This document shows positions 1 to 32,195 of a stretch of DNA of 32,195 bases, piece by piece. The first letter of the stretch is position 1. Each line of letters starts with the position of its first letter. The stretch comes from a virus. The notes beneath the pieces were generated by a model. It saw only the letters and a program-made list of their open reading frames with translations. It had not been told where the DNA came from and made no database searches. Both the position numbers and the translations under genes were made by a program. The DNA lies in the IMG/VR virus record IMGVR_UViG_3300044846_000973, positions 1 through 32,195 of that record. One strand, written 5' to 3'.

Positions 1-33
1 CGACCAGCAAGGAACTCCAGTAATGATTGGCGA
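1..33. repeat. Left copy of terminal overlap repeat
   Basis: These 33 bases recur at 32163-32195 with 31 of 33 identical; the differences are at positions 8 and 10. Both copies encode the same stretch of capsid protein, reading Q here and E at the right end. The simplest reading is an assembly overlap that closes a circular genome of about 32,162 bp, with a strain variant in the overlap. A true short terminal repeat is less likely because the overlap lies inside a gene. Confidence 0.85.
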
Positions 34-739
34 AGGTGTTGAGAAGACTCAAATCGATGTACAATACAAGGAGCAGAGAGCTAAGGTTGAGAAGATTGGT
101 GTACACATGAAGGTTTCTATGGAAATGTTGGAAGATGCCGCTTACTTGGCTTCTTACATCCAATCCAATGGAGTTAAGCGTGTAGAGACTGTAATCGAAA
201 ACCAATTGTTTACTGGTAACGGAACATCTCCTCAGCTTGCTGGTTTGCTTTCTAAGTCTACCACTTTCACTGGTTCTACAATGGCTGGTAAAGTTGAGGC
301 TGCTACTAACTGGGATGTTATCCACGGAATCATCGCTCAAGTAAGAGCTGCAAACGGAACCGCTACTGGCGTATTCGTTGAGACTGGACAATATCACGTT
401 ATGCTTTCTGAGAAGGATGCAGACAAGCAGTATATCTTGCCAGCTGGCGTTACTTTCAACGCAAATGGTGGTATCAACGCTTGGGGAGTTCAAATCATCC
501 CAACAAACGCTTTGACTGGAACTGCTGCTGATTTCGTAGGTGGTGACCTTTCAGCAATCAACGTACGTTTGAGAAGCGGTTTGCAAGTAGCAATCGGAGA
601 GTCTGGCGATGACTTTATCGACAACTTGAAGACTGTAAGAATCGAGCAGCGTTTGGTGCAGTTTATCTCTGCTAACGATACTCCTTGCTTGGTTAAAGGT
701 GTGTTTGCAACTGCAAAGGCGCTTCTTGAGACTACCTAA
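2..739 (+). CDS. Major capsid protein, C-terminal part (split by window ends)
   Basis: This frame is open from base 2 and has no natural start. It continues the gene that begins at 31630. Joined across the overlap, the product is 423 residues, a normal size for an HK97-fold major capsid protein. The part here carries the body of the fold, including a helical run (VSMEMLEDAAYLASYIQ) followed by the segment ending QLFTGNGTSPQLAGLL, which is typical of HK97-type capsid proteins of Bacteroidota phages. It forms the icosahedral shell after cleavage by the protease encoded at 30620. The internal ATG at 23 is not the real start. Codons here are more GC-rich and regular than in neighbours, as expected of a highly expressed gene. 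A strong terminator follows. Confidence 0.9.
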   Translation, partial: DQQGTPVMIGEGVEKTQIDVQYKEQRAKVEKIGVHMKVSMEMLEDAAYLASYIQSNGVKRVETVIENQLFTGNGTSPQLAGLLSKSTTFTGSTMAGKVEAATNWDVIHGIIAQVRAANGTATGVFVETGQYHVMLSEKDADKQYILPAGVTFNANGGINAWGVQIIPTNALTGTAADFVGGDLSAINVRLRSGLQVAIGESGDDFIDNLKTVRIEQRLVQFISANDTPCLVKGVFATAKALLETT

Positions 740-845: not shown

Positions 846-1022
846 ATGGCAACATTTACGATGTGTAAGCCTCAAAGATGCAAGCTGAAACTAACTTGCG
901 AGCGCTTTACTGCAAAGCCTAGCGAGATGCAAATCTACTTTGATAAGGAGCCAAGTAATCCCGAAGGAACGGCTTGTGAAGTGTACTTTAAGAAAAATTG
1001 TAAGCCTTGCGGCGAAATCTAA
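846..1022 (+). CDS. Small Cys-rich protein, paralogue of the gene at 16591
   Basis: The product has 58 residues. The cysteines are at positions 7, 12, 18, 44, 52 and 55, which suggests a small zinc- or Fe-S-binding fold. The core ERFTAKPSEMQ..YF..P...EG..C...YF matches the protein encoded on the opposite strand at 16591-16791 (YRFTAKPSEYMQ..YF..P..EGKCD.YW). Function is unknown. The gene sits between the capsid terminator and a methyltransferase gene. The ATG at 846 follows an A/T-rich leader with no Shine-Dalgarno sequence. The first frame of the next gene overlaps it only if an unlikely TTG start is used there. Confidence 0.75.
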   Translation: MATFTMCKPQRCKLKLTCERFTAKPSEMQIYFDKEPSNPEGTACEVYFKKNCKPCGEI

Positions 1023-1032
1023 AAACCAAAAT

Positions 1033-1566
1033 ATGAATATTAGCGAAGACGATTTCCTAAAAGCGGAAATTGAAAGTTTAAATTTAACGATTGATAATGT
1101 CGACTTTGTGGCTTTAGCTCAGGAAGTTGCAGACTATTGCAAAAGCTTTGAAGTAAAAACTGTGTTAGACTTTGGATGTGGAACTGGCGTTTACTCGGAG
1201 GTTTTGAGACAAAATGGTTTTGACATTACGGCCCAAGACATATTTAAGTCCCATCGAGATTATTGCAAAGAAAATTACCCAAAGTTAAAGGTATTGCAAA
1301 AGCCAAAACAAGCTGACCTTATGTTATGGATTGAGGTGGCCGAACACATGACCGATGACGAAATAGGCAAAGCTTTAAAGGCGGTTAATCCAAAGTATAT
1401 ACTTTTCTCTTCAACTCCTGAAACGACAGATTTTGACGCTGATTGGGGACACATAAACATAAAGCAACAAAACGAATGGGTTGCGATGTTTAACGAATTT
1501 GATTATAAATTAATTGACGAGCCAAAAACACCTACACAATGGGCGCTCACGTTCCAAAAAATCTAA
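1033..1566 (+). CDS. Class I SAM-dependent methyltransferase
   Basis: The product has 177 residues. Residues 44-52 (VLDFGCGTG) are the glycine-rich SAM-binding motif I; an acidic residue (D69) ends the next strand as in motif II; and LMLWIEVAEHM at about 96-106 resembles the motif seen in small-molecule and sugar O-methyltransferases. The short size and absence of a DPPY or PCQ motif argue against a DNA methyltransferase. The two genes downstream look like glycosyltransferases and overlap or nearly touch, so a joint role in making or capping a sugar on the virion or host surface is plausible (inference). The ATG at 1033 was chosen over an upstream in-frame TTG at 940 because that would run through the preceding gene. 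Confidence 0.8.
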   Translation: MNISEDDFLKAEIESLNLTIDNVDFVALAQEVADYCKSFEVKTVLDFGCGTGVYSEVLRQNGFDITAQDIFKSHRDYCKENYPKLKVLQKPKQADLMLWIEVAEHMTDDEIGKALKAVNPKYILFSSTPETTDFDADWGHINIKQQNEWVAMFNEFDYKLIDEPKTPTQWALTFQKI

Positions 1567-2180
1567 TTTACTTTATCTACTATCCAGGGAGGATTGGACA
1601 TTACCACAAGCTTAATTTAGCGTATTTAAACAAGTACTGGCATTTGTTCGATGGTCAAAAGGTTGTAAAGATTGCTTTGGATTTGGGATACAATGCAAAG
1701 CCAATATTGGAGCTTTTGCCAAAGGATTGTAAAGTGGAATTTGTCGAAAATAATAGGACATTTGGCGAAGCCGTACACTTTATGGATTCAATCAATCGAG
1801 TGAGTGGAGGGATGACCTTTTATGGCCATTGTAAGGGCGTCTCACGGCCTTTAATGGGTGGACTAGACAAATGGATTGCCCATTTATACGAAGGCAATCT
1901 AAAGACTATTCCTGACCTTACAGAGAAGCTATTCTCCAGCGTTTGCGGTAAGCTTTTGCCTTGCCCTCCATACGTTCCGCAAGAGTTTCACTATTCAGGC
2001 TCTTTTTATTGGTTTAACACCGACAAAGTAAAAGCCAGGATTAAAGAGATGCCAATGGATAGGCATTTAAGCGAAAGATTTCCAGCGGTAATCGCAAAAC
2101 AAAGCGAGTGTCTATTTCAGTATCCAAGCTTTGACAAGAATTTTAATTACTACGACGAGCGGACATGGAAAAGCCTTTAA
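1539..2180 (+). CDS. Glycosyltransferase-like protein
   Basis: The product has 213 residues. Residues about 94-101 (FYGHCKGV) and FHYSGSFYWFN at about 150-160 resemble conserved stretches of GT-A-type sugar transferases found in polysaccharide loci (a H.KG motif followed by an aromatic-rich strand). No classic DxD is obvious, so the assignment is tentative. It overlaps the methyltransferase by 28 nt at its start and the next gene by 16 nt at its end, indicating translational coupling in one operon. Likely substrates would be nucleotide sugars, with a virion protein, host glycan or modified base as acceptor; the sequence does not tell which. Confidence 0.6.
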   Translation: MGAHVPKNLIYFIYYPGRIGHYHKLNLAYLNKYWHLFDGQKVVKIALDLGYNAKPILELLPKDCKVEFVENNRTFGEAVHFMDSINRVSGGMTFYGHCKGVSRPLMGGLDKWIAHLYEGNLKTIPDLTEKLFSSVCGKLLPCPPYVPQEFHYSGSFYWFNTDKVKARIKEMPMDRHLSERFPAVIAKQSECLFQYPSFDKNFNYYDERTWKSL

Positions 2181-2719
2181 AGATATTTTATTCAAACCCG
2201 TTTGACTTAGATAAAAATATAGGTAAAGCCTACAACGAATACTTGGCCAGCATAAATGCAAACGACGATGATTGGATTGTTTTACAAGACGGTGATATTT
2301 TGTATCTGACTCCTGACTGGGGCAAAAGAATACACGATGCTTTGGCTTTAGATGGAGACAAATTTGGCTTGATTGGATGTTATACTAATCGACTAAGGTC
2401 AAAGCACCAATTGCATGGAAAAGCCTTTAGCAACGATTTAAACATTAGAAATCATTATAATCTAGCTATGAGTTACCAAGGCGAAGGCATCCAAGAGATT
2501 AGCGAATACATTGCTGGGTTTTTTATGGCATTTCAGTACAAGAGCTGGAAAAAAATTAAGTTTGTCGAGAATAGCTTGGCTTTTGATTCTCTGTTTTCGA
2601 TGAGAGTTAAAGAGCTTGGCTTAAAGATTGGTTTAATCCGTTCGCTTTACGTTTTCCATAGTTATCGACCTTGGACTGATTTCGAGCCTTGGAATGAGAA
2701 AAAACATTTAATGAAATAA
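2165..2719 (+). CDS. GT2-like glycosyltransferase
   Basis: The product has 184 residues. The stretch around residues 37-51 (WIVLQDGDILYLTPD) contains a DxD motif (D42-G-D44) at the end of a hydrophobic strand, as expected for metal and nucleotide-sugar binding in GT-A family 2 enzymes. A later ..YIAGFFMAF.. strand and a histidine near the end (YVFHSYRPW) also fit that family. It is shorter than cellular GT2 enzymes and starts directly with the catalytic domain. It is coupled to the preceding glycosyltransferase-like gene. Its place between the capsid and head-tail connector genes suggests action on the virion, which is an inference only. Confidence 0.7.
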   Translation: MEKPLKIFYSNPFDLDKNIGKAYNEYLASINANDDDWIVLQDGDILYLTPDWGKRIHDALALDGDKFGLIGCYTNRLRSKHQLHGKAFSNDLNIRNHYNLAMSYQGEGIQEISEYIAGFFMAFQYKSWKKIKFVENSLAFDSLFSMRVKELGLKIGLIRSLYVFHSYRPWTDFEPWNEKKHLMK

Positions 2720-15716: not shown

Positions 15717-15859
15717 TGCCACTACCAAAGCCAAAACCAGCCGAAACTCAAAGCGATTTTGTCGCTCGATGTGTTGCCGACCCAGTTATGGAAAAGGAAT
15801 TTCCACGCATCGACCAGCGTTTAATAATTTGTTACGTTCAATTCAGAGGCAAAAAATGA
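15716..15859 (+). CDS. Small protein with PLPKPKPxE..F..RC motif
   Basis: The product has 47 residues: MPLPKPKPAETQSDFVARCV then DPVMEKEFPRIDQRLIICYVQFRGKK. The phrase resembles the short N-terminal domain that, from memory, precedes capsid proteases in many phages (P.P...E....F..RC......EFP...QR...C). Here it stands alone in the lysis region. Function unknown. Both ends overlap neighbours (TAATG at the start, ATGA at the end), which supports the reading frame. Confidence 0.65.
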   Translation: MPLPKPKPAETQSDFVARCVADPVMEKEFPRIDQRLIICYVQFRGKK

Positions 15860-16404
15860 GAGAGTTACTAGACGACGAGCGGATAAGAATTGCAATTATT
15901 TCGTTTTTAATTGGGTTATTGTTGGCTTTTGTTGTTTATCCAAAACCTGAGCAAGAGACGATTTATAAGTTTGAAAGCGTGACAAAAACAGACACTTTAA
16001 TTGTCGAGGTTAAGGACACCGTTTACGTCCCTAAAACAAAGATAAAAACCGAGTTTTTAAGGGATACAATCCTAGTCGATTATAAGCCTAAAATTAGCCA
16101 GTTTAACGCGTCCTTTCCTTTTGAGTATGGAAGTACCAACGTAAGCGGTGAAGTACTTGGAGAGGTGCTAAAAATGACCGCAACAAGCGATTTTAAAATA
16201 CCAGTCGTAACCAACACGATTACGAATACAGAAACCAAGACAATTGTGCAAAAACCTAAAGGAATTTACTTGGGCGCTGGCGTCAATTCGTTGCTTCAGC
16301 CAAGCGCGTCGCTTAGCTACATGGATAACAAATACATTTTTCAATATCAGTTCCAGCCTTTGCAAAAGGTACACCAAATCGGAGTCTCTAAAAAAATATT
16401 CTAA
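15856..16404 (+). CDS. Membrane-anchored protein, spanin-like by position
   Basis: The product has 182 residues. Residues about 8-27 (RIAIISFLIGLLLAFVVYP) form a single N-terminal membrane span, followed by a periplasmic region with many Thr/Lys-rich strands (ETIYKF..VTKTDTLIVEVKDTVYVPKTKIKT) and a beta-type C terminus (GIYLGAGVNSLLQPSASLSY). It is the last gene after the endolysin, where inner-membrane spanin subunits lie. It lacks a clear coiled coil or lipobox, so the role is uncertain. Start chosen at 15856 (ATGA overlap) rather than an upstream in-frame codon at 15769. Confidence 0.6.
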   Translation: MRELLDDERIRIAIISFLIGLLLAFVVYPKPEQETIYKFESVTKTDTLIVEVKDTVYVPKTKIKTEFLRDTILVDYKPKISQFNASFPFEYGSTNVSGEVLGEVLKMTATSDFKIPVVTNTITNTETKTIVQKPKGIYLGAGVNSLLQPSASLSYMDNKYIFQYQFQPLQKVHQIGVSKKIF

Positions 16405-16590: not shown

Positions 16591-16791
16591 CTATTTAGGT
16601 TTCACGATGTCTTGAAGTTGACCCCAAATAGATTCGCTTAAATCACCCCAATACATATCACATTTTCCTTCCTTAATTGGCGGCTTCATAAAATAGGATT
16701 GCATATACTCGCTTGGCTTAGCGGTAAATCTGTAGCAGCTTTCTTTGTAGGGACAATTTGTCCCTGGGCACATGGTTATGTCAGGACTCAT
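16591..16791 (-). CDS. Small Cys-rich protein, paralogue of the gene at 846
   Basis: The product has 66 residues. Cysteines at positions 8, 13, 19 and 44 (MCPGTNCPYKESCYRF and EGKCDMYW) suggest a metal site. It shares with the + strand protein at 846 the core [YE]RFTAKPSE(Y)MQ..YF..P..EG..C..Y[WF], so the two are paralogues or recently exchanged copies. It is the last gene of the three-gene opposite-strand cluster. The 123-nt gap between it and the gene upstream holds no TAnnTTTG match; TATTTTTA is the nearest. Confidence 0.7.
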   Translation of the reverse strand: MSPDITMCPGTNCPYKESCYRFTAKPSEYMQSYFMKPPIKEGKCDMYWGDLSESIWGQLQDIVKPK

Positions 16792-16914: not shown

Positions 16915-17175
16915 TTATCCATTTATCTTTAGCAAGACTAGGTAACCAATCAAATCGTTTATAACGTCCTCATCGTCGCGCTCTAAGCTACCATTTTTAA
17001 TTCGCTTTAGCTTATCGTCAATTCTAACCAGTAGTCCCTCCTTAGCGGACAACTGACTAAATACGCCAAGAGGCTCAAGAGCTGAGTTTCCGTACTTACG
17101 ATTTTTGGCAATTAGCAAGTCCCGTATTTCGTCAAGTACAACAACAACTTGGACGGCAAAGAAATTATGCTCCAT
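16915..17175 (-). CDS. DUF1599/Nmad1-like protein (MazG-like superfamily)
   Basis: The product has 86 residues. The pattern LLIAKNRKYGNSALEPLGVFS...EGLLVRIDDKLKRIKNG...EDVINDLIGYLVLLK is that of small all-alpha proteins related to MazG-type nucleotide pyrophosphohydrolases and described as nucleotide-modification-associated or DUF1599. Such enzymes may hydrolyse or bind nucleotides; the phage may use it to shape the nucleotide pool. The start overlaps the upstream stop (TAATG on the - strand), so it is co-translated with the gene at 17175-17495. Confidence 0.75.
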   Translation of the reverse strand: MEHNFFAVQVVVVLDEIRDLLIAKNRKYGNSALEPLGVFSQLSAKEGLLVRIDDKLKRIKNGSLERDDEDVINDLIGYLVLLKING

Positions 17176-17495
17176 TACTTAGTATTTTCATCAATAATGC
17201 CATGAGCAATAAAATACCAATTATCGTTGGAGTCATTCTTAAAAGTCTTTTTCTCGTCATAATATTGCTTAAATGATTTGTACTCGTCGCCAAAGGTATA
17301 TTGGCTGCTTTTGTATTTAGACCGTCCTTTTTTTACTAGCAAGCCATCTGGAAACAAAACGTAAAATTCGTTTTCCTCTACGGCCTGGTTAAACTCCAAG
17401 TATTGCATCCACCAATCTACTGGCTTTCTGTTTTCGTCCAGCACCTTGGTTGCCTCCAGGTAGCCAAACGGATTTAAAATTTTGTCCTCTTCCAT
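17175..17495 (-). CDS. Hypothetical protein of the opposite-strand cluster
   Basis: The product has 106 residues, beginning MEEDKILNPFGYLEATKVLD, with a later aromatic-rich part (YTFGDEYKSFKQYYDEK, then NWYFIAHGIID). No domain recognised. The frame stays open further upstream to 17648, but that would add a hydrophobic, low-complexity stretch that translates the non-coding control region, so the ATG at 17495 is preferred. It is the first gene of its three-gene operon. Confidence 0.65.
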   Translation of the reverse strand: MEEDKILNPFGYLEATKVLDENRKPVDWWMQYLEFNQAVEENEFYVLFPDGLLVKKGRSKYKSSQYTFGDEYKSFKQYYDEKKTFKNDSNDNWYFIAHGIIDENTK

Positions 17496-17639
17496 ACGCA
17501 AGATAAAAGCATAAAAACCGACACTAAAAAAAAATATTTGATTTTGATGAAAATATTTTTGGTAATATGTTGGAATCTCAGAAATAACTATTATTATTGT
17601 ATCACAAATCAGAACAACAACAACCAAAACACCAAAACT
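17496..17639. promoter_or_regulatory. Divergent control region between opposite-strand cluster and early genes
   Basis: On the + strand, TTG (17570-17572), 19 bp and TATTATTG (17592-17599) resemble the Bacteroidota promoter with one mismatch in the -7 box; a perfect TATTTTTG is at 17554-17561 but lacks a -33 element. Two copies of the palindrome AAATATTT (17532-17539 and 17551-17558) are 19 bp apart and could be operators. An A/C-rich leader (ACCAAAAC) precedes the ATG at 17640. A - strand promoter for the cluster is expected here but none is clear. Confidence 0.45.
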
Positions 17640-30372: not shown

Positions 30373-30558
30373 ATGGAGGCAGTTAATCTAATTTGTTTTA
30401 AATGCAAACATTTTGAAATGTTTAAAGGCGGTTGCAAGGCTTTTCCTGATGGAATACCCGATGCAATTACAAGCGGATTAAATAAGCATTCTAAGCCTTT
30501 AAAAGGTCAAACTAATACGATTGTATTCGAGCCAATTGAAGAGCCACAAAGAGGCTAA
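30373..30558 (+). CDS. Small Cys protein after minor head gene
   Basis: The product has 61 residues. The start VNLICFKCKHFEMFKGGCKAF has three spaced cysteines (CxxC plus GGC), and the end has the pattern FPDGIPDAITSG..KHSKPLKGQ..TIVFEP. It recurs, from memory, next to minor head genes of related phages. A small metal-binding head factor is plausible; no function is established. It starts 3 nt after the previous stop. Confidence 0.7.
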   Translation: MEAVNLICFKCKHFEMFKGGCKAFPDGIPDAITSGLNKHSKPLKGQTNTIVFEPIEEPQRG

Positions 30559-30619: not shown

Positions 30620-31642
30620 ATGCTAGACAAAGCCGAGCAATCATATTCAGATTATCCTGAGGCGGTCAGAAATAACGCTAGAAGGGTTTTAAAATATGTT
30701 GATGAGTTCGGTTGGGGGACTTGCGGAACGCCAGTAGGTAAGCAAAGAGCCAACCAGCTTGCAAACGGCGAGCCTGTGTCATTTGATACGATTAAAAGGA
30801 TGTTTTCGTATTTAAGCCGTCACGAGGTTGATTTACAAACCTCTAGCTCTTATGAGGATGGTTGCGGTCGTTTGATGTACGACGCTTGGGGAGGCAAAGA
30901 GGGATTGGTTTGGAGTAGAAATAAAATTAAGGAATTAGAAAAGACTAGCGATATGGGTTTTGTAAAAAAAGGATTAAACCAAGGCTTTACAGATAGTGAC
31001 ATGAAACAAGGGATTGTTTCGGGTTACTTTGCCGTTTTCGGTAACAAAGACCTCGATGGAGATGTAATCGAGCCAGGAGCGTTTACCAAGACTGTAATGG
31101 AGCGCGGCCCTCAAGGGAAGCAGTTAATCAAGTATTTACTAGACCACGATAAGAATAAAGTTGTCGCAAAAATAACCAATCTTTACGAAGACAATAAAGG
31201 CTTGCGTTACGAGGCTAAAATTGGTAGCCATGCAGCTGGGCAAGACTTTCAAAAGATGATTGAGAGTGAGCTAATCAACCAGCATTCTTTTGGCTTTAGA
31301 ACTATAAAAGAGCAGTTCGACCAAGAGGCAAAAGCGAACCTAATTAAGGAGGTAATGATGTACGAAGGTAGTGCAGTCCAATTCTTGGGTGCTAATCCTG
31401 AAACGACGTTTATCGACCTTAAAAGCGAAGCGGACGCATTCGAGTATCTTAGCAGACTTGAAAAGTTTGTAAAGACCTCAGACGCAACCGACGAAACAAT
31501 TGAAAAACTAGAAAATCAACTCAAATCACTTTTGGAGTTTCTAAAGCCAGCCGAGCCTACTTTGGAAATAAAAGAAGCCGAAGCAGTCGAAATAATAACA
31601 ATTAACGAACTTAAAAAACAATTTGAATCATGGAAAATCTAA
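30620..31642 (+). CDS. Prohead protease with N-terminal accessory domain
   Basis: The product has 340 residues. The N-terminal 110 residues (SYSDYPEAVRNNARRVLKYV, then CGTPVGKQRANQLANGE and DAWGGKEGLVWSRNKI) form a small helical domain often fused to capsid proteases in these phages. The rest is a peptidase S78 (HK97 protease) domain: GYFAVFGNKDLDGDVIEPGAF, LLDHDKNK (H176) and LINQHSFGF (S223) supply the catalytic residues. A charged C-terminal extension (about 290-340) may be a linker or scaffold-like part. It processes the capsid protein; its gene overlaps the capsid gene by 13 nt. Confidence 0.9.
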   Translation: MLDKAEQSYSDYPEAVRNNARRVLKYVDEFGWGTCGTPVGKQRANQLANGEPVSFDTIKRMFSYLSRHEVDLQTSSSYEDGCGRLMYDAWGGKEGLVWSRNKIKELEKTSDMGFVKKGLNQGFTDSDMKQGIVSGYFAVFGNKDLDGDVIEPGAFTKTVMERGPQGKQLIKYLLDHDKNKVVAKITNLYEDNKGLRYEAKIGSHAAGQDFQKMIESELINQHSFGFRTIKEQFDQEAKANLIKEVMMYEGSAVQFLGANPETTFIDLKSEADAFEYLSRLEKFVKTSDATDETIEKLENQLKSLLEFLKPAEPTLEIKEAEAVEIITINELKKQFESWKI

Positions 31643-32195
31643 CAATCGACGCCGTAAAGGCAGTCATTGCAGAGGCTGGCGAGGCTCTAAAGGCAAAAGC
31701 TAGTAATGCAGAAGTGAAAGCAAACGAAGCTTTCGAAAAGGCTGAAAGCCTATTGAAGTCATTCGCTGGTGTAGTAACCAAAGAAGAGGCAGCAGAAATG
31801 CAAAAGCAACTTGATAAGTTGGACATTGCAATGCAAAAGAATGCAGTTGAGAAAGAAGTAAATGCAGAAGATTTCAAAACCGCATTTATGAAGGCTTACG
31901 CTCCAGTAAAAGCAGAAATCGAGAGATTGAAGTCTGAGCCTAACGCTCGTCTTAAGGCTCCTTTGGTATTCGAAATTAGCGAGAAGGCAGTTGGAACAAT
32001 TACTCTAGCTTCTACAATCGCTAACGAAGCATCTTCAGGACAAGTAACTATTTCTGAGTTTACTGGTGTTGTTTCTCCTATCCGTCAGCGTTTGTTGACT
32101 TACCTTGCAAACGCAAGCGTTGGAGCAATCGGAACTCAGTATGCAGTATGGGTTGAAGAGTACGACCAGGAGGGAACTCCAGTAATGATTGGCGA
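31630..32195 (+). CDS. Major capsid protein, N-terminal part (split by window ends)
   Basis: These 188 codons begin the 423-residue capsid protein completed at 2-739. Residues about 6-100 form a helical, highly charged region (EAGEALKAKASNAEVKANEA, then AEMQKQLDKLDIAMQKNAVE), the scaffold-like delta domain usually removed by the protease. After it come LKAPLVFEISEKAVGTITLA and ..GVVSPIRQRLLTYL, the start of the mature HK97 fold. The frame reaches the window edge without a stop and joins base 34 in phase. Confidence 0.9.
   Translation, partial: MENLTIDAVKAVIAEAGEALKAKASNAEVKANEAFEKAESLLKSFAGVVTKEEAAEMQKQLDKLDIAMQKNAVEKEVNAEDFKTAFMKAYAPVKAEIERLKSEPNARLKAPLVFEISEKAVGTITLASTIANEASSGQVTISEFTGVVSPIRQRLLTYLANASVGAIGTQYAVWVEEYDQEGTPVMIG
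32163..32195. repeat. Right copy of terminal overlap repeat
   Basis: Identical to 1-33 except at 32170 and 32172 (G in each case, against C at 8 and A at 10), which changes one capsid codon from CAA (Q) to GAG (E). It supports closure of the genome into a circle and suggests a mixed population or closely related strains in the sample. Confidence 0.85.

Follow-up and report, generated by a model that had tools for sequence, protein, structure and literature searches.

CYS1 and CYS2, two small cysteine-rich proteins encoded far apart in one viral genome, are long-diverged members of a single phage protein family, PHROG 20586. A variable cassette of methyltransferase and glycosyltransferase genes is bounded by two constant genes, CYS1 on one side and the glycosyltransferase gene F0 on the other. 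We tentatively propose that the family provides a four-cysteine, metal-binding adaptor kept in two roles, with CYS1 serving the modification of the capsid or of glycans and CYS2 serving early DNA and nucleotide metabolism; this reading is a real possibility, held at somewhat less than even confidence.

The window, that is, the whole stretch of DNA that was analysed, comprises the 32,195 nucleotides of IMG/VR record IMGVR_UViG_3300044846_000973. Its two ends (positions 1-33 and 32163-32195) overlap inside the capsid gene, agreeing at 31 of 33 bases, which makes this a nearly complete genome of about 32 kb; no end repeat was recognised at the contig ends. The terminase of the window shares 55% identity with that of Flavobacterium psychrophilum phages, and on this ground a host among the Bacteroidota is likely.

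Two diverged copies of one protein in the window

Both open reading frames of the preliminary description are present as it had given them, on opposite strands:

846..1022, + strand: CYS1, 58 aa, with six conserved cysteines (7, 12, 18, 44, 52, 55); matches phrog_20586
16591..16791, - strand: CYS2, 66 aa, with four conserved cysteines (8, 13, 19, 44); matches phrog_20586

In a single BLASTP comparison, the two proteins are identical at 24 of 46 positions (52%; 36 bits, E 3e-10), and their Smith-Waterman score of 97 compares with a maximum of 53 over 5000 shufflings of CYS2. The phrog_20586 profile recognises CYS1 with E 9e-9 and CYS2 with E 1.6e-16. Together these results exclude a similarity at background level and bear out the kinship that had been proposed for the pair. 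Up to E 1, Pfam has no match for either protein. Searched in all six frames, the window contains exactly two family members, namely CYS1 and CYS2. Another small multi-cysteine protein of the window (30373-30558, near the portal and MuF genes), with a weak match to phrog_33375 (E 2e-4), is unrelated to them.

The run RFTAKPSE(Y)MQ, by which the preliminary description had joined the two proteins, is indeed common to both window copies, and is encoded by different codons in each (compared by eye), so that no recent gene conversion between them is seen. Divergent CYS1 orthologues carry RYLTKPGGLP in its place, and the run is therefore not a hallmark of the family, the marker of which is instead a set of cysteines and an arginine. 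Both genes are under purifying selection, with median dN/dS values of 0.116 (39 distinct CYS1 sequences) and 0.173 (26 distinct CYS2 sequences).

Signature and distribution of the family

The family is defined by four cysteines and one arginine rather than by RFTAKPSE. C8, C13, C19, R21 and C44 are invariant in 54 of 54 diverse members, with a mean column identity of 33%, in a set whose rows were chosen with a pattern that already required the first three cysteines and the arginine, and from which two members of more than 110 aa, a cut member and a transposase had been excluded beforehand. The phrog_20586 profile matches 53 of the 54 collected members. The core spacing is Cx4C and Cx5C, and a CxxC pair is absent from the core. 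CYS1 is matched only over profile positions 2-42 and adds a C-terminal CxxC motif (KKNCKPCGEI) that sets it apart from the profile. Its residues C7, C12, C18, R20, C44, C52 and C55 are the same in all 12 diverse orthologues, C52 and C55 being the cysteines that it has beyond the four-cysteine core; CYS1 is a distinct six-cysteine subfamily of one phage group.

Relatives of CYS2 were found on at least 500 viral contigs. Those of CYS1 number 56 with a single query and 97 with a CYS1 profile, of which the best 80 of 97 were taken further. Eighteen records of named phages hold relatives, including phages of Cellulophaga, Nonlabens, Maribacter and Celeribacter, and Synechococcus phage S-CBS4. The family is nearly absent from cells. 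It occurs in 2 of 395 cellular Bacteroidota genomes, and one of the two carriers, a Gillisia contig (L148), holds phage-like genes (judged by eye). A plasmid search gave one weak match, and the genome collection yielded 54 candidate stretches, of which 2 were confirmed, one of these a transposase. The C-terminal CxxCPLKEGCYR run of an IS transposase (L149:3852-5300) resembles the CPLKExCYR-like core of the family, but this protein has 483 aa and a different first spacing, and the likeness is one of analogy only. One family member matches NF045547 (E 1e-5), and in three loci (L185:4492-4867, also L186 and L187) two different members lie in tandem with overlapping reading frames. A literature search, with most subscription papers outside its scope, returned no paper naming phrog_20586, DUF6078 or PF19555, and broader ones returned nothing on the PHROG 20586 family among the matches listed.

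The N-terminal part of the Bacteroidota domain DUF6078 (PF19555) may be a distant relative of the family, as judged from profile comparisons. The Pfam model matches 10 of 54 phage members (best E 6e-5), with no member shown above its cut-off of 27 bits (the member of L145 reaches 15.4 bits), and profile-profile comparison gave E 1e-4 for CYS2 and E 1e-3 for CYS1, with hhalign probabilities of 58% and 18%. Five Bacteroidota proteins display the same C-x4-C-x5-C-x-R-x2-A and C-x-[YFW] core as the phage family; DUF6078 differs in having about 80 further residues with conserved YYR and PxxQ motifs, which are absent from CYS1 and CYS2. DUF6078 occurs in 4 of 395 Bacteroidota genomes, where it is chromosomal and its immediate neighbours are unrelated (by eye). 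One DUF6078 protein (L290:1474-1818) is devoid of the third core cysteine, and an intact copy lies elsewhere in the same genome (G333).

A probable metal site

The pattern of conservation indicates that the four-cysteine site most likely holds a metal, either zinc or an iron-sulfur cluster. In the member from L215, the first two cysteines are separated by 15 residues instead of 4, which is what would be expected if a metal is held by the cysteines and the loops are immaterial. The proteins have about 60 residues, of which only the cysteines and the arginine are constant; this makes an enzyme improbable and a binding module held together by the metal likely.

AlphaFold2 models of CYS2 and CYS1 have mean pLDDT values of 64.5 and 51.3, respectively, at which neither the metal geometry nor the fold can be read, and the models were discarded as evidence. 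A Foldseek search with the low-confidence CYS2 model found nothing. Sequence searches of the PDB gave no solved relative, the matches being at chance level: the APLF zinc finger (E 0.85), AMPK alpha-2 (E 0.17) and MasC (E 0.18) were all set aside, MasC because it is out of register with the first three cysteines.

Position of CYS1 downstream of the capsid gene

CYS1 is preceded in the window by the following features:

31630..32195, + strand: major capsid protein, N-terminal part (same gene as 2..739)
2..739, + strand: major capsid protein, C-terminal part, matching annotated major capsid proteins; the gene spans the contig ends
768..796, + strand: intrinsic-terminator hairpin in the gap between the capsid gene and CYS1 (folding z -3.7)

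A search that started from the capsid gene and did not require CYS1 found CYS1 106-122 nt downstream in 75 of 75 testable loci; the sample was the best 80 of 124 loci, and the remaining 5 of the 80 end within 154 nt of the capsid gene. The reverse search, over 80 loci found through CYS1, 2 of them cut before the capsid position, placed the capsid gene directly upstream in 78 of 78 testable loci. Several of these loci come from contigs that also supplied loci to other searches. The capsid proteins of the 80 capsid-first loci are all at least 92% identical to that of the window, so the fixed position of CYS1 is established for a single phage group. More distant capsid relatives occur in named phages (435 records, all below 60% identity), among them Muminvirus snusmum9-1, which has a 41-aa open reading frame in the place of CYS1, as judged by annotation and length. 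The suggestion that the two genes might be mobile accessory genes is contradicted for CYS1 by this fixed position.

Of 115 gaps separating the capsid gene from CYS1 (59 distinct), 113 hold a hairpin followed by a T-run, and the two sides of its stem covary (GGCGGGAA/TTCCCGCC, GGCGAGAA/TTCTCGCC, GGGAAGCA/TGCTTCCC). CYS1 thus starts beyond a terminator. The gaps also hold a conserved TTACTTTA-like box, repeats of which within the window are not above chance, and none of the 59 distinct gaps contains the Bacteroidota -33/-7 promoter consensus in the form used here, fewer than the mean for shuffled sequences. On these two grounds, we do not claim a promoter of its own for CYS1. The placement of CYS1 in the late head block, as first described, is inexact, in that CYS1 follows a strong terminator after the capsid gene and heads a methyltransferase/glycosyltransferase cassette.

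The same observations bear on the possibility that CYS1 is a minor virion protein, for head decoration or head completion, with a structural metal site and an incidental adjacency to the cassette. Its unbroken linkage to a single capsid lineage speaks for such a role, as does the strong constraint on the protein. However, a conserved terminator separates CYS1 from the capsid gene, its distance to the cassette is a matter of a few nucleotides (3-13 nt), its homologues elsewhere lie outside head gene blocks, and snusmum9-1 has a different small open reading frame at this place. We therefore regard a virion protein as unlikely.

A modification cassette with interchangeable modules

Three genes follow CYS1 in the window:

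1033..1566, + strand: F4, class I SAM methyltransferase, the first gene after CYS1; PF13489 (Methyltransf_23), E 5e-12
1539..2180, + strand: F5, cassette gene without a Pfam or PHROG match
2165..2719, + strand: F0, glycosyltransferase; phrog_14179, E 7e-36; closes every complete cassette seen

Across 117 loci, the arrangement after CYS1 is F4-F5-F0 in about 50, F9-F3-F8-F0 in about 37, F3-F8-F0 in about 18 and F13-F0 in 5; nothing was called in 7 loci, and many are cut by contig ends. F3 and F8 match Glycos_transf_2, F13 matches Methyltransf_24, and F9 matches the latter below cut-off. The four methyltransferase/glycosyltransferase modules are interchangeable after CYS1. Their position alone would suggest that the cassette modifies the virion, and DNA, the host surface and the tail are equally open as targets. 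In PMC11256854, putative glycosyltransferases were read as a sign of capsid glycosylation in a mycobacteriophage.

The family could also consist of nucleic-acid-binding regulators, with CYS1 controlling the cassette's expression as a counterpart of Com of phage Mu. PMC6483171 describes Com as a 62-aa CCCC zinc finger that activates translation of the adjacent modification gene mom, and CYS1 resembles it in having about 60 aa, a set of four cysteines and a gene that immediately precedes one for a modification enzyme. A Mom-family gene (L201:2419-3075; PF25680, E 1e-14) lies two genes downstream of one distant CYS gene, but this Mom neighbour was not found in the sister loci of L201. The cysteines of Com form CxxC knuckles, unlike the Cx4C and Cx5C core of the CYS proteins. 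Furthermore, none of 54 members matched a Com family in a Pfam scan with E up to 1, and no stable RNA structure was found in 40 sequences at the junction of CYS1 and the next gene (z -1.7 to 1.9), where a hairpin masking the start of that gene would lie. Regulation of this kind is, on balance, rather improbable.

Genomic context of CYS2

CYS2 lies in a cluster on the opposite strand, next to the following genes:

16915..17175, - strand: 86-aa gene beside CYS2; phrog_1485, without a Pfam match; provisionally labelled MazG-like
17175..17501, - strand: unassigned gene of the opposite-strand cluster

Of 97 CYS2-type loci, 65 share the window-type context and 32 lie elsewhere. In the 65 window-type loci, the gene corresponding to 17175..17501 is 5' of CYS2 in 63, the phrog_1485 gene immediately precedes CYS2 in 46, and the gene at window positions 15769-16404 follows CYS2 on the opposite strand in 62, the other 3 loci being cut. 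In the near relatives L073 and L076, CYS2 is found within a recombination operon on the same strand. Further along the window, the open reading frame at 17637 has a match to Coronavirus C30 peptidase (E 0.017).

Around 38 distant CYS2-type representatives, the neighbours are DNA polymerase A, helicases, primase, ThyX, an annealing protein and nucleases. The scan covered 146 proteins (149 selected, 3 removed by hand), and among the 25 commonest families, which were listed, none exceeds 3 matches and none is a glycosyltransferase or capsid family. A fixed partner gene recurring across the wider family was not found in the neighbour surveys, these 38 representatives included. An early DNA-metabolism setting thus recurs for CYS2-type genes without a fixed partner. 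A mobile accessory gene is an apt term for CYS2 in the loose sense that its broad family occurs in many phages and places, with 32 of 97 loci off the window-type context, and in no stricter one. In five representatives (L191:2772-3641 and relatives), a radical-SAM gene of the photoproduct-lyase-like type lies 2-3 genes 3' of the CYS gene.

The varied early-region neighbours, together with small size, wide spread among phages and recurrent duplication (the tandem overlapping pair of L185-L187), would also fit host-takeover or anti-defence mini-proteins, with CYS1 and CYS2 directed at different host targets and kept as a pair. Typical anti-defence genes usually come and go between close relatives, and CYS1, found in its place at 75 of 75 capsid loci, is too constant for this, which makes such a function quite unlikely.

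Co-inheritance and origin of the pair

Fifty long records, all chosen for holding at least one copy, were searched whole. CYS1 is present in 15, and 14 of these 15 also have a full CYS2-type match; the fifteenth (G041) has a member of another subtype beside a nuclease-like open reading frame (a nuclease by eye). The other 35 of 50 hold CYS2-type genes only, and many of them are fragments or other phages. In the phylogenetic tree, CYS1 forms a single clade (support 100/100) with a long stem and is not nested in the CYS2 of its lineage. A joint clade of CYS1 and the lineage's CYS2, as a recent duplication within the lineage would give, is not rejected (p-AU 0.21); the 66-67 alignment columns are too few to decide the origin of the pair.

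Three records (G039, G041 and G006, the records of L094, L113 and L014) have extra copies approximately 34.5, 34.7 and 29.7 kb apart, on contigs of 34-37 kb in which the capsid/CYS1 or CYS2 blocks repeat with differing sequence, as do their neighbours. The spacing near genome length and the repeated neighbours make wrap-around or mixed-strain assembly likelier than real amplification. The idea that two versions are kept for related but distinct partners agrees with the separate CYS1 clade, the two extra conserved cysteines, the different fixed position and the co-inheritance in 14 of 15 records.

A proposed role for the family

In the adaptor reading that we prefer, the four-cysteine metal site would fold a mini-domain too small to hold an active centre, and this mini-domain would act by docking on other proteins. 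CYS2-type proteins would serve the early side of infection, in DNA and nucleotide metabolism. CYS1 would link the capsid, or the always-kept F0, to the particular modification module of each phage; such a coupling is suggested by its strict association with a single capsid lineage and with the swapping modules. Its position makes CYS1 a candidate partner in the modification of the capsid or the surface. The fuller version, in which CYS1 is a constant, metal-stabilised adaptor co-inherited with the capsid, into which swappable modules plug, and which shares its origin with an early DNA-metabolism accessory protein, is unlikely as a whole. If it were true, a phage lineage would change its surface chemistry while the docking part, CYS1, stays.

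A family now annotated only as of unknown function is thus widespread, carries one invariant Cys4/Arg signature and is split into two kinds in a single genome. The capsid-linked CYS1 offers a handle on the swapping of glycosyltransferase/methyltransferase modules beside the capsid gene, and with it the directly testable question of whether, and how, phages vary the sugars on their heads.
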